Of a stretch of DNA of 64,000 nucleotides, positions 7,898-47,689 are shown piece by piece. A program made the translations under genes and the position numbers. The stretch's first letter is position 1; every line of letters begins with the position of its first letter. The notes under the pieces are model-generated. The model made no database searches and was not told the origin of the DNA. It was given only the letters and a program-made list of their open reading frames with translations. This DNA is from Gammaproteobacteria bacterium (GTDB taxonomy: Bacteria > Pseudomonadota > Gammaproteobacteria > HK1): the NCBI GenBank assembly GCA_009937425.1, contig JAACFO010000009.1, positions 1-64,000 on the forward strand. The letters are read 5' to 3'.

Positions 7898-8481
7898 GTG
7901 CTCCCCTCGTCGACACCTACAAGGATGCGCGTATCGCTCAAATACTTATGGGGCGGAACGACCAGGTTGGTCGGCGCCGGCACCCCCGCGTAGACGCGGC
8001 CCGCATAGTCGAACATCGAACCGTGACAGGGACAGAAGAACCCTCCCGGCCAGCCGGCCCCCAGGGGGGCCTGGTCCTGCTTGATGTAGGAGGGCGAGCA
8101 ACCCAGATGCGTGCAGATGCCTATGAGCACGAGTAGCTCCGGCTTGATGGATCGGAAGTCGTTCCTGGCATACGCGGGCTGCTGATCCTGAGTGGAGCCC
8201 GGATCCCGGAGCCGCTCGTCGAGGCCCGGCAGAGAATCGAGAATTTCCGGCGTGCGGCTGACCACCCAAACGGGCTGGCCACGCCACTTGTAGGTCACCA
8301 TCTGGCCGGGCTCAATTTTGCTGATATCCACCTCGATGGGGGCGCCGATGGCACGCGCCCGCTCGCTCGGTTGCCAGGCGGCCACGAACGGCACGGCCGT
8401 ACCAACGGCGGCCACGCCACCGACAACTGCGACGCTCGCGGTGAGAAATCGACGCCGACCGGCATCCACATCGGTACTCAT
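7894..8481 (-). CDS. petA: Ubiquinol-cytochrome c reductase, Rieske iron-sulfur subunit
   Basis: Rieske [2Fe-2S] protein of the bc1 complex. 195 aa: a Tat-type N-terminus with RRRFLT and a single membrane helix (about 15-35), then the periplasmic cluster domain with CTHLGC and CPCHGS, which supply two Cys and two His ligands. The first gene of petABC; AAGGAG lies 9-15 bases upstream of the ATG. The 183-bp region before it is shared with the divergent degS-like gene and contains a candidate promoter. Confidence 0.97.
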   Translation of the reverse strand: MSTDVDAGRRRFLTASVAVVGGVAAVGTAVPFVAAWQPSERARAIGAPIEVDISKIEPGQMVTYKWRGQPVWVVSRTPEILDSLPGLDERLRDPGSTQDQQPAYARNDFRSIKPELLVLIGICTHLGCSPSYIKQDQAPLGAGWPGGFFCPCHGSMFDYAGRVYAGVPAPTNLVVPPHKYLSDTRILVGVDEGST

Positions 8482-8590
8482 GGTCTAGATAGCTCCTTGT
8501 TCGGGATCGCCTGCGGAGGTGCTATTGTTGTCGCGATTCCGGGTGTTCCAGGCTGGGTTCGAAGCACACGTCTGGCTTAACTTGCTAAGA

Positions 8591-8617
8591 ATCCTATAAA
8601 CGGCACGTAGAGGTCAA
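8591..8617 (-). promoter_or_regulatory. Candidate promoter of petABC
   Basis: Minus-strand TTGACC (8612-8617) followed after 15 bases by TAGGAT (8591-8596). Spacing is shorter than ideal and there is an alternative TATAGG reading two bases earlier. It would give a leader of roughly 100 bases before petA. Assigned from sequence only. Confidence 0.3.
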
Positions 8618-8664
8618 GCCAACGGCCCGCCGGGAACGACTACGGGCACTCGGGGGCGAATGAT

Positions 8665-9780
8665 ATGCGATCGGTCACAGTGTTCAAGTTTGCCCTGCAA
8701 TCGGTCACGGCCGGCCTGGCGCTGGCCTTCGTCGTTTTGCTGCTGAAACCCGAGTGGATTGCGGATATTTCCCGCACCACAGGGGAAATTCGAGGCCAGC
8801 GGGATGATGTGATTTCCTATTCCCGGGCTGTGCTCATCGCCACACCTGCCGTGGTCAACGTCCATACCGCCAAAGCCATCAACAGCCTGCCAAGCCCACT
8901 GTTGAGCGATCCTTTCTTCAAGCGCTATTTCGCCGATCCGCTGCCCGCAACGCCCACACAGATCGCCCGCAGCCGCGGCTCCGGCGTGATCATGAGCGCC
9001 GAGGGATTCGTGGTCACCAATCATCACCTGATCCGCGGCGCCGACGAGATCCGGGTCATGCTCCAGGACGGCCGGGAAGCGAGCGCCACGGTATTCGGGG
9101 CGGATCCGGACACCGATCTGGCCGTACTGAAGATAGAACTGCCCGACCTGCCCGCCATCGCCATCAACGAGGCCCGACAGCCCCGGGTGGGCGACGTGGT
9201 ACTCGCCATCGGCAACCCCTTCGGCGTCGGCAAAACCGTGACCATGGGCATCGTCAGCGCCACCGGGCGCAGTCGCATCGGCCTCAACACCTTCGAGGAC
9301 TTCATCCAGACAGACGCAGCCATTAATCCGGGCAATTCCGGCGGCGCCCTCATCAATCCCTACGGGGAGCTCATTGGCATCAACACCGCCGTCTACTCCG
9401 ATTCCGGCGGGTCCCAGGGGATCGGCTTCGCCATCCCGGCGGCGCTGGCCCACCGGGTCATGCAGGAAATCGTGGATCACGGCTACGTGATCCGGGGCTG
9501 GCTGGGGATCGAAGTACAAGCCTTCGCCAGGACCGAAGCTGGCGCCCCGGCGTCGGTGACGGTGGTCAACGTGCTGGCAAAAACGCCGGCGGAAAGAGCC
9601 GATCTGCGGGCGGGAGACATTTTGACCCAGGTCGACGATACGCCCGTCGCCGATCCCCAGAGCGCCCTCAACGCCATCGCCAGGGTGAAGCCGGGGAATC
9701 GGGTGTCGCTGGGAATCTTGCGCAACGGAGAAGCGCGCCAGGTGGTGGTCACGGTGGCGCAACGCCCGCCGGAGGGATAA
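8665..9780 (+). CDS. DegS/AlgW-type membrane-anchored periplasmic serine protease
   Basis: HtrA-family protease. N-terminal membrane anchor (LQSVTAGLALAFVVLLL, about 11-27) rather than a cleaved signal, trypsin-like domain, and a single PDZ domain (about 275-365) make it DegS/AlgW-like, 371 aa. In E. coli and Pseudomonas this enzyme senses misfolded outer-membrane proteins and cleaves the anti-sigma factor RseA/MucA. Catalytic triad by motif: His121 (TNHHLI), Asp151 (DTDLAVLK) and Ser225 (PGNSGGAL). The family consensus around the His is TNxHV; here TNHHL. It is divergent from petABC and close to his genes and murA, the same neighbourhood as algW in Pseudomonas. I leave the symbol empty because degS and algW are synonyms across lineages. 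Confidence 0.93.
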   Translation: MRSVTVFKFALQSVTAGLALAFVVLLLKPEWIADISRTTGEIRGQRDDVISYSRAVLIATPAVVNVHTAKAINSLPSPLLSDPFFKRYFADPLPATPTQIARSRGSGVIMSAEGFVVTNHHLIRGADEIRVMLQDGREASATVFGADPDTDLAVLKIELPDLPAIAINEARQPRVGDVVLAIGNPFGVGKTVTMGIVSATGRSRIGLNTFEDFIQTDAAINPGNSGGALINPYGELIGINTAVYSDSGGSQGIGFAIPAALAHRVMQEIVDHGYVIRGWLGIEVQAFARTEAGAPASVTVVNVLAKTPAERADLRAGDILTQVDDTPVADPQSALNAIARVKPGNRVSLGILRNGEARQVVVTVAQRPPEG

Positions 9781-9805
9781 TCTTCGGCGACCTCCCGAAC
9801 TGCAG

Positions 9806-10720
9806 ATGGTGATCGAAGTGGGACATGAATTGCGATTTCAGGCGATGACAATCCCGAACACGTCCTGGGACGCATTGCTGGCGCGCTTCCAGAATATCGA
9901 GGAGCTGGGATTCGACATCGCCGGCATGGCGGATCACTTCGTGGATTGGAGTAATCCTCCCAGTCCCTGGTTCGACCTGTGGACTCACGCCGCCGCAATT
10001 GCAGCCAGTACCAGCCGCGTAAAACTCTCCACCTGCGTCGCTCAGATCCCGCTTCGCAATCCGGCCATGTGCGCGCGCCAGGCGCTCTCGGTGGATCACA
10101 TTTCCAATGGCCGGTTGGAGCTGGGGCTGGGGCTGGGACTCACCATCGATCCTTCCTACGCCATGATGGGTATCCCCAATTGGGACAACAAGGAACGGGT
10201 GGCGCGTTTCGTGGAGTACGTGGAGATCGTCGATCAACTGTTGACCAATGAAGTCACGAGCTACAAGGGGAAGTTCTACGAGATCAACGAGGCAGTGATG
10301 AATCCGCGACCGCTGCAAAAACCCCGTCCGCCCATCATGATCGCAGCCATGGGGCCGGTGATGCTGAAAAACGCGGCTCGCTATGCCGATATCTGGAACA
10401 GCATCAGCTTTGCCGAGGACTTCGAAGATCAGATGAAAGAGACACGCCATCGAATGGAGTTGGTCGATGAGCACTGCGCTGCCATCGGCAGGGATCCTGG
10501 CACCCTGCGGCGATCCTATTTGATGTTCGACGCCAAGGCGCGACCCAGTGGCGGGAAAATCAAATACTACGAGTCCGAATCCATCTTTACCGAGATGGTG
10601 GAACGCATCATGGAATTGGGGATAACCGACATCGGAATGTACTATCCCGTGCAGGAAGAACAGTTACCGATGTTCGAGAAAATAGCGACCGATGTCATTC
10701 CGAAGCTTCGGCGTCGATAA
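9806..10720 (+). CDS. LLM-class (luciferase-like) flavin/F420 oxidoreductase
   Basis: Bacterial luciferase-like monooxygenase superfamily, 304 aa, cytoplasmic. Visible family features: IEELGFDIAGMADHF near the N-terminus, ISNGRLELGLGLG (SxGRxxLGLGxG), YEINEAVMNPRPLQKPRPPIMIAA (the standard PxPxQxPxPPI segment) and AARYADIWN. The cofactor (FMN or F420) and substrate cannot be assigned. It follows the protease by 25 bases on the same strand and could be co-transcribed, but the two have no known functional link. Its 3' end overlaps the oppositely oriented hisC by 26 bases. Confidence 0.85.
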   Translation: MVIEVGHELRFQAMTIPNTSWDALLARFQNIEELGFDIAGMADHFVDWSNPPSPWFDLWTHAAAIAASTSRVKLSTCVAQIPLRNPAMCARQALSVDHISNGRLELGLGLGLTIDPSYAMMGIPNWDNKERVARFVEYVEIVDQLLTNEVTSYKGKFYEINEAVMNPRPLQKPRPPIMIAAMGPVMLKNAARYADIWNSISFAEDFEDQMKETRHRMELVDEHCAAIGRDPGTLRRSYLMFDAKARPSGGKIKYYESESIFTEMVERIMELGITDIGMYYPVQEEQLPMFEKIATDVIPKLRRR

Positions 10721-11813
10721 TCTCTTTCAGGGCATGTAAAAACGCCGCGTTTTCCTCCGGCCGGCCGATGGTTACGCGTAGGCAGTCTCTGAGCAACGAA
10801 CTGGCACCGTGTAAGTTCTTTACCAACACGCCGCGCTCGCGCAGCGCAGCCGCCATCGCGCTACCAGTCCCTCGATGGGTACGAACAAGCAGAAAATTAG
10901 CTTGGCTGGGCCAGACTCGAATTCCGTCCATGACAGCGAGACGCGCGTACAGTTCGTCCCGATCGCGGACGATCTGCCGTGTTTGTTCTTCAAACAATGG
11001 GTAATGGGAAAGCGCGAGATCAGCACTGGCTTGGGTGAGAGCGTTGAGATTGTAGGGAAGCCGCAGCTTGTCGAGTTCGCGCGTCCAAGCCGGCGCACCG
11101 GCGAGCACGCCGAGCCGCAACCCGGCGAGACCCAGCTTCGACACGGTGCGCAACACCAGCAAGTTAGGCCGTTCCTCGAGCTGTGAAAAAAAGCTCGCCC
11201 CGGCGAAGGGCGCATAGGCCTCGTCGACAACGACCAAACCGCTCGTTGCATCCAGAATCGCTTCCACGTGCCCGGTATCGAACAGGTTACCAGTGGGATT
11301 GTTCGGGTACGCGAGAAAGGTGAGCGCCGGCTGATGCGTGCGTATCGCTTCCAGGGTCGCATCCAAACGAATACTGAAATCACCTTCATCCAGCGGCACG
11401 CTCTCGAAGCGTCGCCCGGTAGCCCGCGCCACCAATGCGTACATGGCAAAGCTCGGATCCGGCGCAAACACGACACTGCCCGGACCGCCGATTGCCAGTA
11501 TCAGCAGTTGGATGAGTTCATCGGAGCCGTTGCCGAGTAACATTTCGGCAGATGCCGGCACCTCCAGGGCGACCCGCAGGCGCTCTTTCAGCTGTGACGC
11601 TTTCGGGTCCGGGTAGCGATTAACGTCGATGCCGCGCAAGCGTTCGAGCCATTCGTCCTTGAGTCCCGCCGGCCATGGATAAGGATTTTCCATGGCGTCG
11701 AGCTTGATGAGTCCGTGGGCATCGGCCACCGCGTAGGCCGTGAGTGCGCGCACCTGCGGCGGGATCAAACGCGCAATGTACTCGTCGGCGGATTCGTCAT
11801 TCGGCGCACCCAC
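10695..11813 (-). CDS. hisC: Histidinol-phosphate aminotransferase
   Basis: PLP-dependent fold-type I aminotransferase converting imidazole acetol-phosphate to L-histidinol phosphate with glutamate. 372 aa. LLGNGSDELIQLLI, AYPNNPTGN, VVVDEAYAPF and the PLP-lysine segment TVSKLGLAGLRLG are all present, as is the C-terminal LRVTIGRPEEN. GTG start at 11813 has GAGGAAG just upstream. Third gene of murA-hisG-hisD-hisC, ten bases after hisD. Its tail overlaps the LLM-class gene from the other strand. Confidence 0.96.
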   Translation of the reverse strand: MGAPNDESADEYIARLIPPQVRALTAYAVADAHGLIKLDAMENPYPWPAGLKDEWLERLRGIDVNRYPDPKASQLKERLRVALEVPASAEMLLGNGSDELIQLLILAIGGPGSVVFAPDPSFAMYALVARATGRRFESVPLDEGDFSIRLDATLEAIRTHQPALTFLAYPNNPTGNLFDTGHVEAILDATSGLVVVDEAYAPFAGASFFSQLEERPNLLVLRTVSKLGLAGLRLGVLAGAPAWTRELDKLRLPYNLNALTQASADLALSHYPLFEEQTRQIVRDRDELYARLAVMDGIRVWPSQANFLLVRTHRGTGSAMAAALRERGVLVKNLHGASSLLRDCLRVTIGRPEENAAFLHALKEIIDAEASE

Positions 11814-23362: not shown

Positions 23363-24421
23363 GTGGATAAAGAACGCACAAAGGCATTTGCCGAAGAGGT
23401 CTTCAGAGACATGGCCGGCGCGATGACCGCCGGGCTCGGGTTCATTGGTGTTAAGACCGGACTCTTTGAGTGCATGGCAGGCAAGGGCTGGATGACGTCG
23501 GAGGAGGTGGCGCTGGAAAGCAACCTGCAGGCGCGTTACGTGGAAGAGTGGTTGAAGGGCATGGTCTCCGCGGGTTATCTCGAATTCGACCCCGCGCCGC
23601 AGACATACCGTTTGCCCGATGAGCATGCATATTTGCTCGCCTCGGAGGGCACCGACCACTTCATGGGAGGCCTCTTGTCCTTTGTGCCGGTATTGCTTCG
23701 CGCCGCACCGAGAGTCGCGGTCGCATTCGAGCAAGGCGGAGGCGTGCCGTTCGAGGAATACGGCACCGACGGTGTCCAGGCCCTCGACATGATCAATCGC
23801 GGGCAGTACGAGCAGCGCCTCTTGCCGACAGGTTGGCTCAAGTCACTGCCGGACGTGGTGGAACGGCTGGAAGCAGGAGGCCGGGCGTTGGATGTGGGTT
23901 GCGGTGCGGGAAGCGTCGTGCTGACGCTGGCGCGAGCGTTCCCCCGGGCAACCGTCGTGGGACTGGACCCGGATCGCGAATCCATCAAGCACGCGAAAGC
24001 CGCCGCCGCGGCGGCGGACATGAGCGAGCGGGTACGATTCGTCGCTCAGAAGACCAGTGACCTGGAACCCGGCGAGACTTTCGACTTCATCACGGTTTGC
24101 GATTGCATTCACGATCTTGCCGACCCGATTCGAACGCTCGAAGAAATACGCGCGCTTCTCGAATCCCACGGCGTTCTGTTTGTTATAGAACCCAAGGCCG
24201 CCGACAGGCTCGAGGACAACCGCGGTGCGATTTCGACCATGTACTATGGCTTCAGCGTCTTGCATTGCATGACCCAGTCGCTGGCAAACGGGGGACCAGG
24301 GCTCGGCACCTGCATGGGCCCCGCGCGCACGGAAGAATTAATGAGGGAGGCGGGCTTCACGGCTTTCGAAACCCTGGATATCAGGAGTTCCGTGCTGTCG
24401 TTTTACGCGGTTCGGCACTGA
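23363..24421 (+). CDS. Winged-helix class I SAM-dependent methyltransferase
   Basis: 352 aa. N-terminal winged-helix dimerisation domain (about 1-95; LGFIGVKTGLFECMAGKGWMTSEEVA and YVEEWLKGMVSAGYLE), then a Rossmann methyltransferase domain with motif I LDVGCGAGSVVL near 175, VVGLDPD and FDFITVCDCIHDLADP. This layout is shared with Rv2258c-like and O-methyltransferase-type small-molecule methyltransferases; the substrate is unknown. GTG start with AGGAGGG 8-14 bases upstream. Lone gene between queA and tRNA-Leu; no linked biosynthetic genes. Confidence 0.88.
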   Translation: MDKERTKAFAEEVFRDMAGAMTAGLGFIGVKTGLFECMAGKGWMTSEEVALESNLQARYVEEWLKGMVSAGYLEFDPAPQTYRLPDEHAYLLASEGTDHFMGGLLSFVPVLLRAAPRVAVAFEQGGGVPFEEYGTDGVQALDMINRGQYEQRLLPTGWLKSLPDVVERLEAGGRALDVGCGAGSVVLTLARAFPRATVVGLDPDRESIKHAKAAAAAADMSERVRFVAQKTSDLEPGETFDFITVCDCIHDLADPIRTLEEIRALLESHGVLFVIEPKAADRLEDNRGAISTMYYGFSVLHCMTQSLANGGPGLGTCMGPARTEELMREAGFTAFETLDIRSSVLSFYAVRH

Positions 24422-24524: not shown

Positions 24525-24611
24525 GCCGGGGTGGCGGAACTGGTAGACGCGCCAGACTCAAAATCTGGTATGGGAAACCATGTGAGAGTTCGAGTCTCTC
24601 TCCCGGCACCA
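24525..24611 (+). tRNA. tRNA-Leu, anticodon CAA
   Basis: 87-nt class II tRNA with an encoded CCA end. Acceptor arms GCCGGGG and TCCCGGC pair (last pair G-U). The anticodon stem CCAGA/TCTGG frames loop CTCAAAA, so the anticodon CAA (24559-24561) reads UUG leucine codons. A long variable arm (TATGGGAAACCATGT region) and GAGAGTTCGAGTCTCTC T-arm complete the fold. Followed by accessory genes, but no integrase or repeated 3' end of the tRNA was seen nearby. Confidence 0.95.
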
Positions 24612-24791: not shown

Positions 24792-27700
24792 ATGGCTCTT
24801 TCCATAAGAGTGATCGTTCCCGCGCAAAATAATCACTCTAAACGATCAGCAACGACTCATTTTCAAGACACTATTATCTTGCTCAACGACTTACATCGGT
24901 CCGATTCCTCCAGGACACAGGCGCTCCGTTTGATGGTGGTCGTGTGGGTGGCAGTGGTCCTGCTGTCGGGTTGTAAAACGGTCGAGTCCGGACCGCCGGC
25001 GATTTCGCTCGAACAGGCCAAGAAGGTCACGGCGACCTTCGAATGGCAATCCTTCACTCCGCCACCCAAGTCCATCGACGATATCACCGCAATTCTCGAC
25101 GATCACCAACTTGTGGATCCGAAAGCGGTGGAGCGCGCTCGGGCGAGGGCAACTACCGAACCGGCGCCCGGCATTAGTGGCATAGATTTGGCGGAGTTCT
25201 TTTGGAACCGTGGCCTGGCGGCACGGAAAATCGGCGACAGCCGGCAGTACCTCGCAGACCTCAGAGAGGCTGAACGTCTGTCGCGAGACATGGACGGCGA
25301 TTCCAGATTCGACATCCTCTGGGATTTGTCGAATGCCGAACTGTTGTCAGGTAGATTCGCTGACGCGATCCATCACCGCGAGCAGTCGCTTGCCTTCGTC
25401 CCGTCAAACCGCCGCGGTTCGCAGATCGCGCGCGGGGCAGTTCTGGCCGTTCATTACGGTCGCGCCGGAGATCTGCTAGCTGCGGAACAACTACTGAAGA
25501 GATCGGAAGCGCTGCTCGCGCAGGCGAAGTCGTGGCGATCGTGGCACGAATGGAACAACCTCTGGACGGCTCAGATCGCGCGAGCAAAAGCCAATCTCCT
25601 CGATGTGAAGGGGCAATATGCGAATGCCGAGCAACACTACCGAGCCGCCATCGTGAAATTCCGGAAGGATTTCGAAACCCACCCCGAGGCCACATACAGC
25701 GCGATACACATCGAATTGAGCCACGCCGAGCTGGCCGAGAACCTTCTCCGTCAAGATCGATTGATCGAGGGAGAGATCGAGGCAAGAAAGGCGGTAATGG
25801 AATCGCTCTCCCGGGTCGGACGCGATTCGCAGGACACCGCTCTGCAATTAAAGACCCTGGTCCGCGTGATTGGCGCGCAAGGTCGCCATGCGGAAGCCGA
25901 GCAGCTGGCGCGTGCATTGACCGACATCTACCGAATGACGGGCGCACCGAGAGACTCGTTTCAGTTGGCGCTCGCCCGCGCCGAGCTTGCCGAGGCGCTG
26001 GTCAACCAGGAACGTTGGACAGCGGCAAATGACGTATTCGAGTCAATCAAAGCAGACCTGGCTACGGATGCCGTCACGTTCGATCAGTTCTTTTCTCGTG
26101 AGATAAATTGGGCCGTAGCACTCGTGAGCAGCGGCCGGGCCGCCGACGCGGAAGAGGTGGCCCGACTGGCATGGCAGCATCATCAGTCGTCGCTGGGACC
26201 CAAACATTACCTCACGGCCGAAGCGCATGGGGTGCTTGCCATTGCGCTCACAAAGCTCGGTATGCAGCAGCAGGCAAGGGACGCGTTTGAAGCATCGGTG
26301 CCGATATTGTTGACGCACTCTCGTCGAAGCGACGCGGAAGGGGACAATCAATCCGCCAAGGAGAAGCGCCTCCGCCTCATACTCGAGGCCTACATGGACC
26401 TCCTGGCAAGATTCGAACACGCCAGCGTCGCCCGTGAATTCGATGCGATGGACGAAACCTTCCGGCTGGCCCAGTTTGCCCGCGGACAATCGGTGCAGCG
26501 GGCCTTGTCGGCGAACGCGGCCCGCGCTGCTGCCGGCGACGTAGAGCTTGCGAGGCTCGTGCGACTCGAGCAGGACGCCGTCAAGCAGATCGGCGCGTTA
26601 TACGGGTTGCTGGCGCGTGCGGTATCGGAAACGACGTACAGGCCCAGCGAGGCCGCGCTCGAGGAACTCAGGGTGCGAATCGACACACTGCGTGACGCTC
26701 GGGCCGCATTTGCCGAAGCGATTGAAGCACGTTTCCCCGAATATGTCGCACTCATGAACCCGAAGCCGGCAGCCATCGCCGCGGCGCGTGCCAGCCTGCG
26801 GCCCGGCGAGGCGCTGGTGGTGACCTATGTTGGGAATGACGAGACCTACGTTTGGGCGGTGCCCAAGGCCGGACAGGTCGCATTCGCCGCGGCCCCGCTC
26901 GGGCGTGAGAGAGTGGCCGCGGTCATTGGTAGTCTGCGCCGATCGCTTGATCCGCAGGCGGCCTCGCTGGGAGACATCCCGTCATTCGACGTCGGTTTGT
27001 CGCATCGTCTTTATCGAGAGCTGCTGGCGCCGGTGACGCCGGGATGGCAGCAAGCGCAGAGCCTGCTGGTGGTCGCGGATGGCTCACTCGGGCAGCTGCC
27101 GTTGTCGGTGCTGACGACTAAGCCCGCGCCACCGGCCCAGGAGAGGAAGCCACTGTTCTCCGAATACCGCGACATCCCCTGGCTCGTGCGCAGCCATGCG
27201 GTGACGGTGCTGCCGTCCGTATCGTCCTTGGCGACGTTACGGAAGCTGCCGCCCGCGGCGCCGACGCGGCGCGCCTTTGCGGGCTTCGGTGATCCGTGGT
27301 TCAGTCAGGCACAGGCCGCTGAAGCCGAAGCAGAGAAGCCAACGCAGCCTGCGGCGTTGGCCTCGCGCGGCGCGCTCGAGGTGCGCGGCTTGCCGGTGTC
27401 ATTGCGCACCACGCCAGCGCTCGAAGGCGTATCGAGCGCGAACCTGGCAATGCTGCCGCGTCTTCCGGATACGGGTGATGAGGTGAAGAGCATCGCGCTC
27501 GCGCTCAATGCGGATCTCTCGCGCGACGTATTCACCGGTAAGGCGGCGACCGAAGACCGGGTTAAGTCGATCACACTCTCGGGGTACAAGGTGCTTGCGT
27601 TCGCCACCCACGGGCTGGTGCCCGGCGACCTTGATGGACTCACCCAACCCGCGCTGGCGCTGACATCGCCGCAGGTGGCGGGCGGCAGTGAGGACGGGCT

Positions 27701-28094
27701 GCTGACCATGGGCGAGATTCTGGGGCTCAGGCTGGACGCCGATTGGGTGGTGCTCTCGGCATGCAACACTGCGGCAGGTGCGGGCGCCGGCGCAGAAGCC
27801 GTCTCGGGGCTCGGGCGCGCGTTCTTCTATGCCGGCACGCGGGCGCTCTTGGTCTCGAACTGGCCGGTCGAGACGACCAGCGCGCGAGCCCTGACGACCG
27901 ATCTGTTCAGGCGTCAGAGCGCCGATCCCACCCTCTCCCGGGCCGAGTCCCTCCGCCGAACGATGAACGCCCTGATCGACGGGCCGGGCTTCGTGGATGC
28001 TCAAGGCCGCACCGTTTTCTCCTACGCCCATCCGATTTTTTGGGCACCGTTCTCACTTGTCGGCGACGCTGGCGGACACGCGGCCGGGAGTTAG
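24792..28094 (+). CDS. Exported TPR-CHAT caspase-like protein (probable lipoprotein)
   Basis: 1100-aa protein. A hydrophobic segment ending VVLLSGC (Cys60 of the ORF) looks like a lipoprotein signal. It lacks positive charge if started at the ATG at 24933, so a start upstream is needed; 24792 is the only upstream ATG, and a TTG at 24879 is also possible. Residues about 140-600 are alpha-helical with TPR-like repeats (for example YANAEQHYRAAIVKF, RHAEAEQLARAL). The C-terminal CHAT domain (about 760-1090) has the caspase-type dyad His940 (FATHGLV) and Cys991 (LSACNTAAG), then GLGRAFFYAGTRALLVSNWPV. CHAT proteases are caspase relatives; TPR-CHAT proteins can be regulated proteases, as in gasdermin or Craspase systems, but no such partner is encoded here. 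The substrate is unknown. Confidence 0.85.
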   Translation: MALSIRVIVPAQNNHSKRSATTHFQDTIILLNDLHRSDSSRTQALRLMVVVWVAVVLLSGCKTVESGPPAISLEQAKKVTATFEWQSFTPPPKSIDDITAILDDHQLVDPKAVERARARATTEPAPGISGIDLAEFFWNRGLAARKIGDSRQYLADLREAERLSRDMDGDSRFDILWDLSNAELLSGRFADAIHHREQSLAFVPSNRRGSQIARGAVLAVHYGRAGDLLAAEQLLKRSEALLAQAKSWRSWHEWNNLWTAQIARAKANLLDVKGQYANAEQHYRAAIVKFRKDFETHPEATYSAIHIELSHAELAENLLRQDRLIEGEIEARKAVMESLSRVGRDSQDTALQLKTLVRVIGAQGRHAEAEQLARALTDIYRMTGAPRDSFQLALARAELAEALVNQERWTAANDVFESIKADLATDAVTFDQFFSREINWAVALVSSGRAADAEEVARLAWQHHQSSLGPKHYLTAEAHGVLAIALTKLGMQQQARDAFEASVPILLTHSRRSDAEGDNQSAKEKRLRLILEAYMDLLARFEHASVAREFDAMDETFRLAQFARGQSVQRALSANAARAAAGDVELARLVRLEQDAVKQIGALYGLLARAVSETTYRPSEAALEELRVRIDTLRDARAAFAEAIEARFPEYVALMNPKPAAIAAARASLRPGEALVVTYVGNDETYVWAVPKAGQVAFAAAPLGRERVAAVIGSLRRSLDPQAASLGDIPSFDVGLSHRLYRELLAPVTPGWQQAQSLLVVADGSLGQLPLSVLTTKPAPPAQERKPLFSEYRDIPWLVRSHAVTVLPSVSSLATLRKLPPAAPTRRAFAGFGDPWFSQAQAAEAEAEKPTQPAALASRGALEVRGLPVSLRTTPALEGVSSANLAMLPRLPDTGDEVKSIALALNADLSRDVFTGKAATEDRVKSITLSGYKVLAFATHGLVPGDLDGLTQPALALTSPQVAGGSEDGLLTMGEILGLRLDADWVVLSACNTAAGAGAGAEAVSGLGRAFFYAGTRALLVSNWPVETTSARALTTDLFRRQSADPTLSRAESLRRTMNALIDGPGFVDAQGRTVFSYAHPIFWAPFSLVGDAGGHAAGS
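24807..24839. repeat. Inverted repeat upstream of or at the start of the CHAT gene
   Basis: AGAGTGAT (24807-24814) and ATCACTCT (24832-24839) are perfect 8-bp arms separated by 17 bases. Arms of this size and spacing suit a dimeric regulator. The AT-richer composition here suggests that the region from about 24790 to 24900 is partly regulatory rather than coding, which bears on the choice of the CHAT start codon. Confidence 0.4.
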
Positions 28095-29174: not shown

Positions 29175-31106
29175 ATGGCTACCGACGACAGCAAACCAAT
29201 GAAGAGCGCGCGCCGGCACGAAAGGCCGGGGCCAGTACGGCTGCTGCTCATCAATCCCCGCTTTCCGGAAAGTTTCTGGAGCTTTCGCTGGGGGATCGAC
29301 AAGGTACTGACCGACAGACGCGCCGTAAATCCGCCGCTGGGCCTTGCCACCCTGGCTGCCTTGTGCCCCCCGGATTGGGAGGTCAGCATCGTCGATGAGA
29401 ATGTCGAAGCGCTGCCCGTCGGGGGGCACGCCGACATCGTCGGGGTATGCGGCATGGGCGTGCAGCACGCCCGCCAGGTCGAGCTTCTGAGCTTCTACCG
29501 CAGACAGGGGGCATTCGTCGTCGCCGGAGGCAGCTTCGCCTCGCTCTGCCCGGAGCGCTATGAGGGTCTGGCAGACACGGTGATCGCGGGTGAGGCCGAG
29601 TACATCTGGCCCGCCTTTTGCCGTGACTACATGCGTGGTGCGACGCAGAGTTCCTACCGGGAAGTGGGTGTGGTGGATCTCGCCGACTCGCCCACGCCAC
29701 GCTTCGAGTTGCTGAAGCTCGAACGCTACGTGAGCGCGAGCCTGCAATTCTCCCGGGGTTGTCCCTACCGTTGCGAGTTTTGCGACATCATCGTGATGTT
29801 CGGCCGCCGGCCACGCACCAAGACCCCGGAGCAGATCGGCGTGGAGCTCGATGGACTGCGCGCGCTAGGCATTCGCCGCGTGTTCTTCGTCGATGACAAC
29901 CTCATCGGTCACAAGCCCAGGGCCAAAGTGCTGCTTGCTTTCCTCATCAACTATCAGCGCCGGCACGGCTACGCATTCCAGTTCGGTACCGAAGCGTCGA
30001 TAAACGTTGCCGAGGATCGGGAATTGCTGGCGCTACTGCGTGACGCCAGCTTCACCTGGCTGTTCATCGGTATCGAATCCCCCGACGCGGCGAGCCTCGA
30101 GGAGGCGGGCAAGGCACAAAATCTTCGCGCCGATATGTTGACCGCGGTGCGGACGATTTACAGCCATGGCATCGATCTGCTGGCCGGGTTCATCGTCGGC
30201 TTCGACAACGACACGCGCGACAGCTTCGAGCATCAGTACCGCTTCATCACGGCCTCGGGCATCCAGGTCGCGATGGTCGGATTGCTGAGCGCGCTGCCGC
30301 GCACGCCACTCTACGAGCGGTTGCAACGCGAGGGGCGTCTGCTGCCCGAAACTCGAGAAGGCGACAATACGCGCGTCGGCACAAACTTCATTCCGCGCCA
30401 GATGTCTTACGACGCCATGGTGACGGGCTACACGGAGCTCTGGCGACGGCTAACCTGCGATGCGAGTATTTCCGAACGGATACTGGCCAAGACCCGCTAC
30501 CTGCGCCGACCGATCTACGTCAGTGGGGAATCGCTCTCGGAGCGCCTTGCGTTGCTGGCGAGATTCGTACTGCACGGCCTTCTCGCGGGCGGCCCGAGGC
30601 GCTGGTTTTATTTCTCCAGGAGCTTTCTGGGGAGCCCGCCGACTACCTGGGCCCTGGTCGTCAACGACTGGGTATGCGCTCTCTCGATGCAACACTTCGC
30701 GATGCGCCACCTGTGCGCGTCCGCGGCCAACGAGCGCAGCATGGCACAGGCGACTCTCGACTTTATCCGGCAACAGTGCGACACCGGCCTGCGCCAACGT
30801 ACCTTGGAAGCATCACTGCATCTGGGCAAACAGGGCACGCAGCTCATCATCACGATACGCGGCGCGGTGGATAAAAGCTTTTTCATCCGCGCCACACGGC
30901 GTATCGAGAAACTGCTCGAGTGCTCGGCGACGACACTCAGCCTGCGCATCGAATCACTGGCCGCCGGCGAGCGCCGGCACGTCATGCGGTCGTTGCGCCG
31001 GCTCAGCCGCTATGGCGATCGCGTCACCGTGAGAATGAGCACATCGGTCAGCGCCCTGCTTCCCGTCGATTGGTCGGCGTTCCAGCGCGATCTGGATGAA
31101 GTCTGA
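29175..31106 (+). CDS. B12-binding-domain radical SAM protein with C-terminal STAS-like domain
   Basis: 643 aa. N-terminal cobalamin-binding-like Rossmann domain (about 20-160; VRLLLINPRFPESFW, NPPLGLATLAALCP), radical SAM core with CPYRCEFC (Cys196, Cys200, Cys203) near FSRGC, FFVDDNLIGHKPRAK and FIGIESPD, then a DUF4070-like helical region (about 400-490). These features are shared with hopanoid-methylase-like (HpnP-type) and other class B methylases, but no hopanoid genes are nearby. Residues about 555-643 (LIITIRGAVDKSFFIRATRRIEKLL and following strand-helix-strand pattern) resemble a STAS fold; that is inference. ATG with little Shine-Dalgarno. Isolated gene between divergent and convergent neighbours. 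Confidence 0.82.
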   Translation: MATDDSKPMKSARRHERPGPVRLLLINPRFPESFWSFRWGIDKVLTDRRAVNPPLGLATLAALCPPDWEVSIVDENVEALPVGGHADIVGVCGMGVQHARQVELLSFYRRQGAFVVAGGSFASLCPERYEGLADTVIAGEAEYIWPAFCRDYMRGATQSSYREVGVVDLADSPTPRFELLKLERYVSASLQFSRGCPYRCEFCDIIVMFGRRPRTKTPEQIGVELDGLRALGIRRVFFVDDNLIGHKPRAKVLLAFLINYQRRHGYAFQFGTEASINVAEDRELLALLRDASFTWLFIGIESPDAASLEEAGKAQNLRADMLTAVRTIYSHGIDLLAGFIVGFDNDTRDSFEHQYRFITASGIQVAMVGLLSALPRTPLYERLQREGRLLPETREGDNTRVGTNFIPRQMSYDAMVTGYTELWRRLTCDASISERILAKTRYLRRPIYVSGESLSERLALLARFVLHGLLAGGPRRWFYFSRSFLGSPPTTWALVVNDWVCALSMQHFAMRHLCASAANERSMAQATLDFIRQQCDTGLRQRTLEASLHLGKQGTQLIITIRGAVDKSFFIRATRRIEKLLECSATTLSLRIESLAAGERRHVMRSLRRLSRYGDRVTVRMSTSVSALLPVDWSAFQRDLDEV

Positions 31107-31121
31107 TGCAGCGAATGTCGC

Positions 31122-32396
31122 TCAGCGCAGCGTGACGTTGAAGACGCGTGTTTCGGCCGAGTTGTCACCGATTTTCCGCTCGATTTTGACGGAAACCGTA
31201 TCGCCCGGGTGTTTGTCGAGCAATCCCATCTTGATGCCGGCGAGATCACTCACCGGCCGACCCTGGAGCCCTACGATGCGGTCCCCTGCCTCGAGTCCGG
31301 CTTCTTCGGCGCCGCTGCCGTCGGCGAACGACAAAACGCTGACTCGGCCGGGCTCGGTGCCCAGCATCACGCCGAGCATGCCTGCGGGCGGTAGCTCGAG
31401 CATCTCCGAGACGAGCATGAAGTCGCCATCTTCCTGGTGAAACGACGGCGAGTCGTGGGTGCCGCCCTGGAGCACCACACTGACCGCGTCCGCAGGCTCG
31501 CGTCGTGTGACGCGCGCGGGGATCCCGGAGCGAATGACATGACCGGTGCCCGCCAACACCACCAGCCGACTTTCGGGATGCTCGACCATAAAGCGCGCCG
31601 TACGTTCCGCCATTCCTTCGTCCCACAGCAGTTGAACCTCGAAGAACTGCTCGAAATCGCCGCGGGTCTCTTCCGGATGCTGCTCGAACGCAGTCTTTAT
31701 GCGCTCACGGTATCGTTGCCCGGAGCGTTCCACGGTGCCGGGGAGGCTGGCGCGTTCCTCGTCACTCAGATTGTCCATGTCGCCGAGGCCGACCTTGGCG
31801 GTGATCTCCGCCGCAACGTTGAGGGCGACGATGGCGATCCCCTGGGTGCGCGCAAAGCTCAAGATGGGCTCGTAGAGCCGGTAGTCGAAACGCCATCGAT
31901 TGTAGTACTCGGTGAGCCTGAGCATGTCTTCGGCGTCGATACGGCCGGCGACGAAATCATCCAGGTGGGCCTGAAACGGTTGCTGGAAGAACTCCATGGC
32001 GATGACCATACGGAGGTTCCGGCGGTGCAGCCGGCAGATGATCTCGAGCTGGTTGAGGTGGTGATCGTAGCGGTCGTGGCTCTCGCCCACGAATACCACG
32101 CGGCTCTGCGCGAGGACGCCGATCAAGGTCTCGAAATCGAACTCGGCATCGCCGGCGATCACCTCGGGCGCTTGCCAACCGCTGCCGGCAGCGGCTTCGC
32201 TGCAGGCTTTCTCGGAAGAAGCTTCGGCAACCGCCCCAAGCAGCGACAACACCAGCATGCAGACAAAGACCGCGTGGAGAAGGATTATGGAGTGCCGCCC
32301 GGGCGTTTTCCGAAGAGAATTGACTCCGGATTGGGTTTTCTTACAAGTTAGCGTCGGTAAGTGCACGGAGATTCCAGTTGAACCGATTTTTTCCAT
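31122..32396 (-). CDS. Exported ChaN-like protein with C-terminal PDZ domain
   Basis: 424 aa. After a signal segment (about 35-60, ILLHAVFVCMLVLSLLGAVAEA) comes a ChaN/DUF399 domain: VVFVGESHDRYDHHLNQLEII, VIAMEFFQQPFQAHLDDFVAG, and VLAGTGHVIRSGIPARV. The ChaN fold binds haem in Campylobacter and is proposed to act in iron uptake; GESHD and GTGHV carry the conserved His residues. The C-terminal 90 residues form a PDZ domain (MLGVMLGTEPG, GLEAGDRIVGLQGRPVSDLAGI). Start at 32396 is supported by AGGA just upstream; it overlaps the divergent metallopeptidase start by 19 bases, so their promoters lie inside each other's coding regions. Confidence 0.83.
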   Translation of the reverse strand: MEKIGSTGISVHLPTLTCKKTQSGVNSLRKTPGRHSIILLHAVFVCMLVLSLLGAVAEASSEKACSEAAAGSGWQAPEVIAGDAEFDFETLIGVLAQSRVVFVGESHDRYDHHLNQLEIICRLHRRNLRMVIAMEFFQQPFQAHLDDFVAGRIDAEDMLRLTEYYNRWRFDYRLYEPILSFARTQGIAIVALNVAAEITAKVGLGDMDNLSDEERASLPGTVERSGQRYRERIKTAFEQHPEETRGDFEQFFEVQLLWDEGMAERTARFMVEHPESRLVVLAGTGHVIRSGIPARVTRREPADAVSVVLQGGTHDSPSFHQEDGDFMLVSEMLELPPAGMLGVMLGTEPGRVSVLSFADGSGAEEAGLEAGDRIVGLQGRPVSDLAGIKMGLLDKHPGDTVSVKIERKIGDNSAETRVFNVTLR

Positions 32397-40372: not shown

Positions 40373-41125
40373 TTGAAATCGACCACCTTCAAACAAGAGG
40401 CACCTGTTGCGGCAGGCGCTGCCCGTTCACAACTCCTGTATGAGATCGCCAGCGGCGTCAGCGGGCTCGCGCTGGCGTTGTTCATGTGGGGGCATCTGCT
40501 GCTCGTGGGCTCCATACTGCTCGGGGCACGGGGATTCGACAGCCTCGCGGGCTGGCTCGAGGACAACTGGATCGCGCAACCCACGGTGGTGGTAGTACTG
40601 GTGCTGTTCCTGCTGCACGCCGCCATGGCCAGCCGCAAGATACCGGCTCAGCTGCGCGAACGCCGGCGCATGATCGCGCTTGCCCGCGGGCTCAAGCAGT
40701 CCAGGGGGCCGCCTGGCTCGGCCTTCCAGCCCCATCTCGAATCCATGTTGTGGATCTGGCAGGTGCGTACCGGCATGGTGATCCTGGTTCTGGGCAGCTT
40801 CCACGTGTTGCTGCTGGGCGTCGACGTGTTGACGCCCCTGTTCGGTGAGAGCACGGGCATCGAGGCGGCGACGTCCACCGCGCGGGTTCGCGGCGGTCTC
40901 TGGCCCATCTATGCCGTGCTTCTGCTGGCGGTGGAATTCCACGCCAGCGTTGGCCTGTATCGCCTGTTCGTTAAATGGGGTGCGGGCGCATGGCTCACAC
41001 GACCAACACTGCATCGCCTGGAGCAAATCATATTCTGGCTCGTCCTGGGACTCGGTGCAGTGACCCTCGTGGTCCTCGCCGGCGTGATCGAGCCGCCGTT
41101 CGCCTTCCTGTTGAACGGTTCATGA
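40373..41125 (+). CDS. frdC: Fumarate reductase/succinate dehydrogenase diheme cytochrome b subunit
   Basis: 250 aa with five membrane helices. Four histidines at helix positions equivalent to the haem ligands of Wolinella FrdC are seen: His41 (MWGHLLL), His82 (LLHAAMASRKIP), His144 (SFHVLLLG) and His190 (EFHASVGLYRLFVKWG), predicting two b haems and menaquinol-linked quinol:fumarate reductase of the single large anchor type. TTG start with GGAGAAGGG upstream. Overlaps frdA by four bases. Confidence 0.92.
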   Translation: MKSTTFKQEAPVAAGAARSQLLYEIASGVSGLALALFMWGHLLLVGSILLGARGFDSLAGWLEDNWIAQPTVVVVLVLFLLHAAMASRKIPAQLRERRRMIALARGLKQSRGPPGSAFQPHLESMLWIWQVRTGMVILVLGSFHVLLLGVDVLTPLFGESTGIEAATSTARVRGGLWPIYAVLLLAVEFHASVGLYRLFVKWGAGAWLTRPTLHRLEQIIFWLVLGLGAVTLVVLAGVIEPPFAFLLNGS

Positions 41126-43077
41126 GCGGCGGCGCAATACACACGACTGACGTTCTGGTGATCGGCGGCGGGCTTGCCGGGGAGCGTACCGCCATCGAAG
41201 TTGCGGCGGCGGGCCACAGCGTGACCGTACTCTCCGTGGTGCCGCCGCGGCGCAGTCACAGTTGCGCGGCCCAGGGCGGCATGCAGGCCGCGCTCGCCAA
41301 CTGCGTCAAGGCCGAAGGCGATAGCACCGACTGGCATTTCCTGGATACGGTCCGCGGCTCGGACTGGGGAGCCGATCAGGAGGTGACACGGATCTTCGCC
41401 GAAGAAGCACCGGTGGCTGTGCGTGAGCTGGCACACATGGGGGTCCCCTGGACACGCGTGCGCGGGGGCGCGAACGCCTACTTCATAAAGGGCGACCGCG
41501 TTGCCATCGACGAGCCGGAGGAGAAAGCCGGCCTGATCATGCACAGGGACTTCGGCGGCACGGCAAAATGGCGCGCCTGCTATGCGGCAGCCGGCACCGG
41601 TCACGCAGTGCTCTACGCGGTGGATTCCGAGGTGGTGCGTCTCGGCATCACGGTGCGCGATCGCATGGAAGCCGTGGCCCTGATCCACGAGGACGGGCGC
41701 TGCTGGGGCGTCGTCGCCAGATGCCTGCGCACAGGACATCACGGAGCATTTCTGGCGAAGGCCACGATCATAGCCACCGGCGGATTCGGGCGCGTCTACG
41801 GTCAGTACACCACCAACGCCACCATCAACGAAGGCACAGGCACCGCCATCGCGCTGGCAACCGGCGCTGTGCCCCTGGGCAACATGGAAGCCATCCAGTA
41901 CCACCCCACTGCCCTCGCGCCCAGCGGCATCCTCGTGACCGAAGGCTGTCGCGGCGACGGCGGCTACCTGCTCGACAAGGATGGCCGCCGCTTCATGGTG
42001 GATGCCGAACCGGAGAAACAGGAACTCGCCAGCCGCGACGTGGTCTCGCGGCACATGGTGGAATGCATGCGCGCCGGCAAGGGTGTGGAGACGCCCTACG
42101 GACCGCACCTGTGGCTCGATCTCCGTCATCTCGGTAAAAAACACCTGACCACGAAGTTGCGCGAAGTGTGGGATATCTGTCACGACTTCGTCGGCGTCAA
42201 TCCGGAAAAGGAACTGATCCCGGTGCGGCCGACGCAGCACTATTCCATGGGTGGTATACGCACCAACAAAGATGGTGAGGCTTACGGTATGCGCGGGTTG
42301 TTCGCCGCCGGGGAAGCCGCCTGCTGGGACATGCACGGTTTCAACCGGCTGGGTGGTAACAGCCTGTCGGAGACCATCGTGGCCGGGCGCATCGTCGGGC
42401 GGCGGGTCGCAGGCTTCGTTTCCGAAACATCCCTGCATGTGGACACGCGTATCGCCATGGATGCCATAGCGGCGGCGGAATCCCGCGCGAAAGAATGGCT
42501 GGCGCGCAGCGGCAGCGGTCCCAGCGTCTATGGGATCCGCGATGCAATGGGTGAAACCATGATGCAACTGGTGGGCGTATTCCGCAGCGGCGATGAGCTG
42601 GAACGGGCGGTAAGCAACTTGAGATCCTTGCTGGATGACTGTCGCAAGGCCGTGCTGCGCTCGAAAGTACCCGGGATGAATCCGGAACTCTCCTTCGCCC
42701 TGCGGCTCGAGGGGATGCTGAAACTCTCACTGGTGACCGCCATTGGAGCGCTCGCACGCACCGAGAGCCGCGGCGCTCATTTCCGTACCGACTACCCTTT
42801 GCGCGACGACGCCAATTGGCTGAACCGCACACTGGTGCGCTGGCCCGTGGATGCGTCGGAGCCGGTCTTCTCCTATGAACCGGTGGGCCTCCTGGATCTG
42901 CCGCCAGGGCATCGTGGCTACGGCAGTGACCATCGCCACGAGATGCGGTGCTCCATCGGCGACTACAACTCCGCGGTCGCCGATGCGCAACAGGCCCAGG
43001 GACGTCTGCCGACACGGGAAGAATTCGGCAGCCGCATGCACTGGGGCGCATGGCAGAACACAGGCGCAGTCACATGA
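41122..43077 (+). CDS. frdA: Fumarate reductase/succinate dehydrogenase flavoprotein subunit
   Basis: 651 aa, covalent FAD subunit. DVLVIGGGLAGERTAIE is the dinucleotide-binding fold; the flavin-linking His46 lies in RRSHSCAAQGGMQ; EAIQYHPTALAPSG, GDGGYLLDKDGRRFM and QHYSMGGIRTN are catalytic-region blocks, then GLFAAGEAACWDMHGFNRLGGNSLSETIVAGR. The gene order C-A-B and the diheme anchor suggest a Wolinella-like QFR; direction (fumarate reduction or succinate oxidation) cannot be decided from sequence. ATG at 41122; the longer ORF is inside frdC. Confidence 0.95.
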   Translation: MSGGAIHTTDVLVIGGGLAGERTAIEVAAAGHSVTVLSVVPPRRSHSCAAQGGMQAALANCVKAEGDSTDWHFLDTVRGSDWGADQEVTRIFAEEAPVAVRELAHMGVPWTRVRGGANAYFIKGDRVAIDEPEEKAGLIMHRDFGGTAKWRACYAAAGTGHAVLYAVDSEVVRLGITVRDRMEAVALIHEDGRCWGVVARCLRTGHHGAFLAKATIIATGGFGRVYGQYTTNATINEGTGTAIALATGAVPLGNMEAIQYHPTALAPSGILVTEGCRGDGGYLLDKDGRRFMVDAEPEKQELASRDVVSRHMVECMRAGKGVETPYGPHLWLDLRHLGKKHLTTKLREVWDICHDFVGVNPEKELIPVRPTQHYSMGGIRTNKDGEAYGMRGLFAAGEAACWDMHGFNRLGGNSLSETIVAGRIVGRRVAGFVSETSLHVDTRIAMDAIAAAESRAKEWLARSGSGPSVYGIRDAMGETMMQLVGVFRSGDELERAVSNLRSLLDDCRKAVLRSKVPGMNPELSFALRLEGMLKLSLVTAIGALARTESRGAHFRTDYPLRDDANWLNRTLVRWPVDASEPVFSYEPVGLLDLPPGHRGYGSDHRHEMRCSIGDYNSAVADAQQAQGRLPTREEFGSRMHWGAWQNTGAVT

Positions 43078-43835
43078 GCGAGGCGACGAAGACGAGGCGG
43101 CTGCGATTCGAGATCTTCCGTTACAACCCGCAAGATCCCGCATCGAAACCCCATGTGGAGCATTTCGAGCTCGACGAAACACCCTACATGTCGCTGTTCC
43201 TCGCGCTGAATCAGATCCGCGAGCACGATGATCCCAGCCTGCAATTCGACTTCGCCTGCCGCTCCGCCGTTTGCGGCTCCTGCGGCATGATGGTGAACGG
43301 CCGCCCGGCTCTGGCCTGCCGCACGCAGACCAGCGATTTGCCCACTGTGATACGCCTGTATCCGCTACCGGTATTCAAGCTCATCGGCGATCTCTCCGTG
43401 GACACCGGCAGCTGGTTTCGTGCGCTGGCGGAACACGTGGAAGGCTGGGTGCACGAGCGCGCCCTGTTCGACGAGAATGCGCCGGAAGAGCGCATGAACG
43501 ACGATGTTGCCCAGGCCATCTACGCGGCCGACCGGTGCATCGAATGCGGATGCTGCATCGCCGCCTGCGGCGTGGCGAACGTCAACGGAGACTTCGCGGG
43601 TCCTGCCGGACTGAATCGCGTCGCGCGTTTCATGCTGGACCCCCGCGACCGTCGCGAGGACGCGGACTGGTTCGACATCGTTGCCAATGAGGACGGTGTC
43701 TTCGGCTGCCTCGGCATGATGGCGTGCCACGACGTTTGCCCTAAGGAACTCCCGCTGCTGGAGGTATACGGTTTTCTACGCAGGAAGATGCTGGCAGCGG
43801 GCCTGGGTGTCGGCACGGCGGCGCGATCGGGCTGA
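43074..43835 (+). CDS. frdB: Fumarate reductase/succinate dehydrogenase iron-sulfur subunit
   Basis: 253 aa from ATG at 43074, overlapping frdA by four bases. The N-terminal plant ferredoxin-type domain has CRSAVCGSCGM plus a downstream Cys (ALAC) for [2Fe-2S]. The C-terminal domain has CIECGCCIAACG and CLGMMACHDVCPK for the [4Fe-4S] and [3Fe-4S] clusters. Completes the frdCAB operon. The next gene is 140 bases away and unrelated. Confidence 0.95.
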   Translation: MSEATKTRRLRFEIFRYNPQDPASKPHVEHFELDETPYMSLFLALNQIREHDDPSLQFDFACRSAVCGSCGMMVNGRPALACRTQTSDLPTVIRLYPLPVFKLIGDLSVDTGSWFRALAEHVEGWVHERALFDENAPEERMNDDVAQAIYAADRCIECGCCIAACGVANVNGDFAGPAGLNRVARFMLDPRDRREDADWFDIVANEDGVFGCLGMMACHDVCPKELPLLEVYGFLRRKMLAAGLGVGTAARSG

Positions 43836-43975: not shown

Positions 43976-45424
43976 ATGAGCAGCAACCTCCTGCATCGGC
44001 GCGCGGTGTCATTGCCTGCCCTGGTGATGGCGATCCTCGCGCATCTCATTCCCGCGACGGCGTTGGCGGCGGATCGCGTCGCCCTGATCATCGGCAATGC
44101 CGACTATCCCAGCGCACCGCTGCGCAATCCCGTGAACGACGCCCGCGCCATGTCCCGGGCATTGCGCAAACTCGAGTTCGAAGTCTTCAGCTTGGAGAAC
44201 GCCAACAAGCGGCAAATGGAACAGGCCATCGTGCGCTTTGCAAGCCGATTGAAAAAAGACAGCTCAGGCCTTTTCTACTACGCCGGTCACGGCGTGCAGG
44301 TGAACGGACGCAACTTTCTCATTCCCGTCGATGCAGACATCGACTCGGAACGCGAGATACGCATCGAAACCGTGGGCGTAAATGTGGTGTTGGACGAATT
44401 GGGTTACGTGGGCAATCGCATGAACATCGTGATACTGGATGCCTGCCGCAACAACCCGTTCGAGCGTCGCCTGCGCGGGGGATCCAGAGGGCTGGCCGCC
44501 ATCGACGCCGCCCGCGGCACGCTCATCGCCTATGCAACGGCTCCGGGATCGGTTGCGCTGGACGGCGACGGGCAGAACGGGATCTACACCGAAGAGTTAC
44601 TGAGTGCACTTCAGAACCCGGGGCTCCAGGTAGAAGAGGTGTTCAAAAGAGTTCGCATCGGTGTCGCGCGCCGCTCGAGGCAGCAGCAGATCCCCTGGGA
44701 ATCCTCATCACTTACGGGCAGCTTCGTCTTTAACGCAGCGCCCGCGACATCCACGGCGCAGAGCGGCGCGGGGAATCAGGCGGAGTTGCTCTTCTGGCAG
44801 AGCGTTTCCAGGAGCGACAATCCGGACACCTACCGGGCCTACCTGCGTCAGTTCCCCGAGGGCATGTTCACTGATCTTGCCCGCATTCGGCTCGAGGATC
44901 TTCAAGTGGGGGGTCCTGGTGCAAAGGCGCACACCGCGGGGGCTCCGGCGCAGGGAACGCTCCTGGCCAAGGCCGAACCCGAACCCAGCGTGAGCGAGAA
45001 AATCATGGTCATCGGCATTATAGAGCCGCAGGGAACGGTATGGGGCTACTGCGAGCAAGGTGTCGACGGGGATGCGATCGCCACGCAAGCGGGCGAGTAT
45101 CTCCGAACGGCTCGCGGCTTCAGTTTTTTGCATCGATGGCATCGGAACCAGGATACCCGCGGCCTTTGGAAATATTCGGGGCCGCGTCCGAGCCCCTATG
45201 AGGAGAAGATTCAGGCATACGGGAAATGGAACGGCGTGGACGGGGTTCTGGTGTTCAGATACGAGGCCAGCGGCAGCTACTGCGCGAGAATCAAAATCGA
45301 GGCGTATCTCTACGATGTCGCCAGGGAAACCAGTTACCAACAAAAGGGCGAACTTGGAGACGTCGCTCGGATGACCGGCGAATTGACGGCCAAGTTTGCC
45401 AAGGGACGGGGCATAAAGCCGTGA
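43976..45424 (+). CDS. Exported caspase-like (peptidase C14) protein, copy 1
   Basis: 482 aa. Signal peptide (about 1-32, ending ATALAADR), then a caspase p20-like domain with the dyad His105 (YYAGHGVQ) and Cys157 (ILDACRNNPF), plus VALIIGNADYP and RGGSRGLAAIDAARGTLIAYATAPG. A linker repeat-like segment FWQSVSRSDNPDTYRAYLRQFPEGMF (about 272-297) is typical of bacterial caspase-family proteins. The C-terminal 120 residues (IMVIGIIEPQG, GVDGVLVFRYEASG, IKIEAYLYDVARET) resemble a TolB-N/LpoB-like alpha-beta domain; inference only. Bacterial homologues cleave after basic residues. No toxin, STAND or NTPase partner is adjacent. Paralogue follows directly. Confidence 0.9.
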   Translation: MSSNLLHRRAVSLPALVMAILAHLIPATALAADRVALIIGNADYPSAPLRNPVNDARAMSRALRKLEFEVFSLENANKRQMEQAIVRFASRLKKDSSGLFYYAGHGVQVNGRNFLIPVDADIDSEREIRIETVGVNVVLDELGYVGNRMNIVILDACRNNPFERRLRGGSRGLAAIDAARGTLIAYATAPGSVALDGDGQNGIYTEELLSALQNPGLQVEEVFKRVRIGVARRSRQQQIPWESSSLTGSFVFNAAPATSTAQSGAGNQAELLFWQSVSRSDNPDTYRAYLRQFPEGMFTDLARIRLEDLQVGGPGAKAHTAGAPAQGTLLAKAEPEPSVSEKIMVIGIIEPQGTVWGYCEQGVDGDAIATQAGEYLRTARGFSFLHRWHRNQDTRGLWKYSGPRPSPYEEKIQAYGKWNGVDGVLVFRYEASGSYCARIKIEAYLYDVARETSYQQKGELGDVARMTGELTAKFAKGRGIKP

Positions 45425-45430
45425 TGCGCC

Positions 45431-45444
45431 GAATCCGGGCTGAA
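45431..45444 (+). repeat. 14-bp repeat GAATCCGGGCTGAA, copy 2
   Basis: Second copy, 73 bases before the second caspase start. Here it forms part of a short hairpin (CGGGC-TGAA-GCCCG, 45436-45449) just after the first caspase gene, so in this location it could also act on transcript ends, although no U-run follows. Confidence 0.5.
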
Positions 45445-45517
45445 GCCCGCTAAGCGAAGTTTCACCCTTTACGGCGGCCGTTGTTAAACTGTGGACATCT
45501 GTCGGAGGACTCACGCG

Positions 45518-47687: not shown

Positions 47688-47689
47688 GC

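Follow-up and report, generated by a model that had tools for sequence, protein, structure and literature searches.

We report that the 1100-residue TPR-CHAT protein encoded at 24792-28094 (forward strand) of a 64,000-nucleotide stretch of gammaproteobacterial DNA, hereafter the window, is, to judge from its sequence and that of its relatives, almost certainly an extracytoplasmic, membrane-anchored lipoprotein, and that genes of its kind recur close to genes for CHASE2 transmembrane nucleotidyl cyclases. The best-studied bacterial caspase relatives are cytoplasmic and act in defence or development. The recurrence of exported proteases beside cyclic-nucleotide membrane sensors in many bacteria hints at an undescribed envelope module of protease-linked signalling, and we would give about an even chance to the reading that the CHAT protein is an envelope protease working with the cyclic-nucleotide signalling of a CHASE2 cyclase, probably controlling it.

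Domain architecture and predicted fold

Pfam places TPR_12 at residues 439-506 (E 3.5e-10) and CHAT at residues 737-1092 (27000-28067, forward strand; E 9.1e-50), the latter with 170 bits for PF12770 against a curated cut-off of 24. An AlphaFold2 model of the 1100-residue protein, built with 50 relatives (pLDDT 85.2, pTM 0.85), predicts an extended solenoid of helices and, C-terminal to it, a mixed alpha/beta caspase-type domain; the alternating helices of the TPR solenoid, as delimited by Pfam and the model, would span model residues about 51-453 (25119-26327, forward strand). The catalytic pair of PF12770 is represented by His940 (codon 27609-27611), conserved in 83 of 83 aligned relatives, and by Cys991 (codon 27762-27764), conserved in 82 of 83. 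The TPR array and CHAT domain with a full dyad, as described in an earlier note on this DNA, are thus borne out, and the dyad is kept in essentially all of the aligned relatives. From these features we infer that the protein is a catalytically active, caspase-fold cysteine protease. A poorly ordered loop directly follows Cys991 (model residues 934-938, pLDDT below 50), and such disorder would fit a protease requiring activation, although it is only a hint.

Only a single CHAT gene was found in the source genome (4.87 Mb in 320 contigs). Its dN/dS of approximately 0.25 with respect to the gene of a sister genome, lower still towards the end of the CHAT region, indicates that the gene is under purifying selection. 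Searches of the PDB with the full protein sequence and with a CHAT profile gave no match, and a search with the family profile retrieved TPR proteins only.

Predicted export and lipid anchor

A hydrophobic core and lipobox (MVVVWVAVVLLSG-C61; 24933-24974, forward strand) end in the motif LLSGC, whose cysteine is residue 61 (24972-24974) when numbered from the longest start. When the three candidate starts were compared (ATG at 24792, TTG at 24879 and ATG at 24933), Cys61 was retained with any of them; since a start at 24933 would leave the n-region nearly absent, 24879 or 24792 is the likelier true start. The aligned ATG and the LSGC are kept in the sister gene, the product of which is 76% identical, despite diverged upstream DNA. 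An N-terminal signal peptide with a lipobox, as expected of a bacterial lipoprotein, was thus found both by the sequence test described below and in the sister gene.

Relatives were collected by pattern search of genome contigs, and the 61 sequences with a readable N-terminus, the window protein included, were scored for an export signal with a regular-expression lipobox and a hydropathy test, together with a control. A hydrophobic stretch with a lipobox, followed 21-35 residues later by a conserved PP motif, was seen in 34 of the 61, and a further 21 carry a candidate Sec-type signal by crude criteria, so that one or the other is present in 55. Six have longer N-termini, and at least one of these (L059) begins with a hydrophobic signal-like stretch; the latter protein (7700-11117 of its locus) carries MORN-like repeats between the signal sequence and the TPR region. 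In the control, lipobox-like motifs were found at none of 23 other cysteines of the same proteins. The residue after the lipobox cysteine is mostly Gln among the relatives and Lys in the window protein, which has two cysteines in all, the lipobox Cys61 and the nucleophile Cys991. One or two cysteines are likewise found in 45 of 50 mature relatives, as would be expected of proteins in an oxidising compartment that have retained no cysteine besides the nucleophile and the one carrying the lipid.

The lipobox claimed in the earlier note can therefore be regarded as real, given the comparable motif in the relatives, the empty control and the LSGC of the sister gene, and the predicted extracytoplasmic, membrane-anchored placement is supported by sequence. 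What did not hold is the idea that export sets this CHAT protein apart, as most relatives are predicted to be exported too. It is scarcely credible that the protein is instead a cytoplasmic protease whose N-terminal hydrophobicity is due to chance and whose translation begins after the lipobox. In favour of this, the start codon is a candidate only and the region upstream of the gene showed no consensus sigma-70 promoter; however, the motif is kept by the sister gene, recurs across the family at a stereotyped spacing and is confined to the one position, and other cysteines are nearly absent.

The window cluster and its surroundings

The impression in the earlier note that no partner lies nearby was not borne out either: relatives of the CHAT gene are linked to CHASE2 cyclases, secreted proteins and exported C14 proteins, and the same kinds of partner are present in the window itself, at 43.9-49.6 kb. 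Two predicted exported C14 caspase-like proteins are encoded there in tandem on the forward strand, A at 43976-45424 (dyad His105/Cys157) and B at 45491-46945 (dyad His109/Cys161; 48% identical to A), both with Pfam E-values of about 1e-42, N-terminal hydrophobic segments and YAGHG/LDAC motifs. Together with the CHAT protein they bear out the claim of three caspase-fold enzymes, all predicted to be exported, within about 22 kb. The two best sister-genome relatives of this duplicated pair (43976-46945) lie on separate contigs. Directly upstream of the pair, 40975-43835 encodes fumarate reductase-type flavoprotein and iron-sulphur subunits.

On the reverse strand follows p244 (46959-47693), a small secreted protein of 244 residues with two cysteines invariant among its relatives, for which neither a Pfam family nor a PDB relative was found. 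Its gene overlaps by 4 nucleotides the end of that for a CHASE2 transmembrane class III nucleotidyl cyclase (47690-49639, reverse strand; CHASE2 E 2e-29 and 103 bits, cyclase domain E 6e-16 and 59 bits, both above their cut-offs), with hydrophobic segments at residues 5-23, 304-322 and 341-359. For each of the five best full-length relatives of this cyclase, a CHAT or C14 gene is found at a distance of no more than about 7 kb. Judged by gene order, the window would hold the dispersed parts of a module that elsewhere forms a single run, the CHAT gene being separated from the rest by about 20 kb.

The CHAT gene itself directly follows tRNA-Leu(CAA) (24525-24611, forward strand), an order shared with the sister genome. 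A methyltransferase gene (23363-24421) between queA and the tRNA in the window is absent there in the sister genome, and the two genomes differ downstream of CHAT as well; the surroundings of the tRNA are thus variable. Downstream in the window are encoded a B12-binding radical SAM protein with DUF4070 (29175-31106) and a ChaN/Tiki-superfamily protein with a PDZ domain at its C-terminus (31122-32396). In the sister genome there is no CHASE2 match on the contig that carries the CHAT orthologue, and p244 is absent; another exported CHAT protein, of shorter length, is encoded there a few kb downstream of the C14 protein A orthologue (L092, 9944-12319).

Linkage to CHASE2 cyclases

When neighbouring genes were clustered at loci picked by CHAT alone, 17 loci proved to contain a CHASE2 cyclase and 12 a small secreted protein, SEC223; a structure model of SEC223 (pLDDT 76) gave no significant fold match. 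When co-conserved neighbours were counted in 27 genomes, 15 of 75 CHAT genes lay within 5 kb of a CHASE2 gene against 0.49 expected, as did 6 of 43 C14 genes of the window type against 0.30 expected, and in a repeat with 53 other Gammaproteobacteria carrying CHAT genes the count was 9 of 103 against 0.59, although the corresponding probabilities presume random placement and independent genomes and so overstate the certainty. The CHAT proteins of the repeat set are mostly of other, shorter types; many are encoded directly beside the CHASE2 gene, and most readable N-termini of those so paired begin with an export-like hydrophobic segment. Even so, the excess over chance is both large and repeated. 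Like the export signals, the dyad and the domain content, this genetic linkage is read from sequence.

Several gene orders recur, as called by a crude gene caller with which some short flanking ORFs are unreliable. The order CHAT-p244-cyclase is found in L099, where the lipobox LAGC marks the CHAT protein as a predicted lipoprotein, and in L100; CHAT-SEC223-cyclase occurs in several loci, CHAT-C14-SEC223-cyclase in L056 and C14-p244-cyclase in L102. Relatives of p244 adjoin CHASE2 cyclases in L099, L100, L102 and L103, and single runs of CHAT-p244-cyclase and CHAT-C14-cyclase are present in Tagaea and an Azospirillum MAG. Output domains of the cyclases in L109-L119 were assigned from motifs only. 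As assigned by eye, L058 (the same place as L105) carries a papain-like exported protease gene flanked by the genes for CHAT and the CHASE2 cyclase, and a similar protease gene adjoins the cyclase in L101 (11812-13377); this is possibly a third type of exported cysteine protease in the CHASE2 setting.

A proposed envelope module

In the model that we propose, the CHAT protein would be exported via the Sec pathway and lipid-anchored at Cys61, and Lys rather than Asp after this cysteine would, by the E. coli sorting rule, direct it to the outer membrane. The TPR solenoid would most likely recognise a partner that the CHAT domain would then cut. The module would combine exported proteases of the caspase fold (CHAT and/or C14) with a small secreted protein (of the p244 type in the window and of the SEC223 type in others) and the CHASE2 transmembrane cyclase, and its most likely job would be proteolytic control of the cyclase's periplasmic side, with cleavage of the CHASE2 ectodomain or of the small secreted partner altering the output of cyclic nucleotide, probably cAMP. 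In S. meliloti, a CyaD1 construct without the CHASE2 domain makes cAMP constitutively (PMC5498481), indicating that loss or inactivation of the ectodomain can activate a cyclase of this kind, and cAMP synthesis by CHASE2 cyclases rises upon signal perception via the outer-membrane protein NsrA (PMC13001267). Together, these findings suggest that a periplasmic protease could switch the cyclase by cutting its ectodomain or a bound partner.

The substrate, the direction of control and the cooperation of the CHAT protein with a cluster 20 kb away are what we infer here, and it is possible that control runs in the reverse direction or that the genes are merely co-regulated. Several observations run counter to the module. 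Only about a fifth of the CHAT genes of the first set lie beside a CHASE2 gene, and one genome (G197) has CHAT with no CHASE2 match at all. In the window the CHAT and cyclase genes are 20 kb from each other, and the sister genome shows neither p244 nor a CHASE2 match on its CHAT contig. Linkage could reflect co-regulation rather than physical action. The broadest form of the model, in which CHASE2 cyclases would be switched by proteolysis at their outer face, the cleavage being done by exported proteases of the caspase fold (CHAT, C14 and perhaps papain-like) and giving rise to a cyclic-nucleotide signal, in a module both widespread in Proteobacteria and undescribed, is tentative and in our estimate somewhat doubtful.

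Other roles are conceivable. The protein might be a general periplasmic processing or quality-control protease, with the cyclase co-located through a shared envelope regulon and being neither substrate nor direct partner; the majority of CHAT genes are not beside CHASE2, several genomes have many CHAT paralogues, and the L058 run holds a papain-like protease together with an OmpA-type protein. We nevertheless consider this unlikely, although with an appreciable chance of being right, since the linkage is found again in different CHAT subfamilies and in two classes of Proteobacteria, where the linked genes are often immediate neighbours. It is quite improbable that we are dealing with an anti-phage or cell-death system in which the exported caspases are effectors and the cyclase generates the signal as in Pycsar. 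PADLOC does yield a caspase-model match for the C14 proteins and PycC-model matches for the cyclase domain, but these are generic, the CHAT protein has none and neighbours show generic ones at most. The proteases would reside outside the cytoplasm, the compartment in which Pycsar messengers are made, and the CHASE2 domain faces out. This reading was tried and found weak, and in this respect the earlier note was right: there is no defence-system signature beyond generic domain matches, and 50 kb contained no close direct repeats suggestive of a CRISPR array. An equally slim chance is left for a sensor or scaffold whose CHAT domain mainly binds, perhaps like the transmembrane anti-sigma factor DdvA, the top Foldseek match (8rot_A, E 6e-12), as against a His/Cys dyad conserved in essentially all 83 sequences.

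CHAT proteases as a kind are known, and what appears new is their export across a large family and their tie to CHASE2. No paper combining "CHASE2" and "CHAT domain" was found in the searched literature, a weak result because subscription papers and preprints lay outside its scope. If the exported set is indeed tied to receptor cyclases, many CHAT and C14 genes now without explanation would gain a testable role, and CHASE2 cyclases, the signals of which are, to our knowledge, mostly unknown, a candidate route of activation.

Comparison with known systems

DdvA, separases and the Craspase TPR-CHAT protein occupy the top Foldseek ranks, with a loose global superposition (rmsd > 12 Å) that argues for the same domain types and not for close kinship. 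DdvA (PDB 8rot), the best match by E-value, is known here from its PDB title alone, and PDB queries with two other CHAT proteins did not retrieve it. Separase shares the helical scaffold and caspase-fold protease domain but is eukaryotic, with very low identity and different biology. Csx29 of the type III-E CRISPR effector Craspase (E 1e-9, target TM 0.49) likewise has a TPR solenoid followed by a CHAT domain with a His/Cys dyad; however, it is cytoplasmic and bound to Cas7-11, whereas the window protein is a predicted lipoprotein, and, of the Cas7-11 and CRISPR array with which Craspase is associated, a scan of 50 kb for CRISPR-like repeats found no array. HetF of Anabaena also combines TPR and CHAT in a membrane-linked protein whose active site is required, but a single transmembrane segment separates its CHAT and TPR parts, in that order, and its partner is the divisome (PMC8406250), whereas in the window protein the order is lipobox, TPR, CHAT.

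On the cyclase side, CyaD1, CyaD2 and CyaK of S. meliloti are CHASE2 receptor cyclases needing an envelope partner (PMC5498481, PMC13001267), although the known one, NsrA, is a beta-barrel outer-membrane protein and not a protease. In magnetotactic bacteria, MtxA is a secreted protein encoded just before a CHASE2-adenylate cyclase (PMC4439547); the p244 profile did not match the MtxA structure entry, and the word caspase is absent from that paper. Finally, although its caspase domain is predicted to be cytoplasmic, a C14-CHASE2 fusion of Trichodesmium unites a caspase fold and CHASE2 in one protein (PMC3501461).
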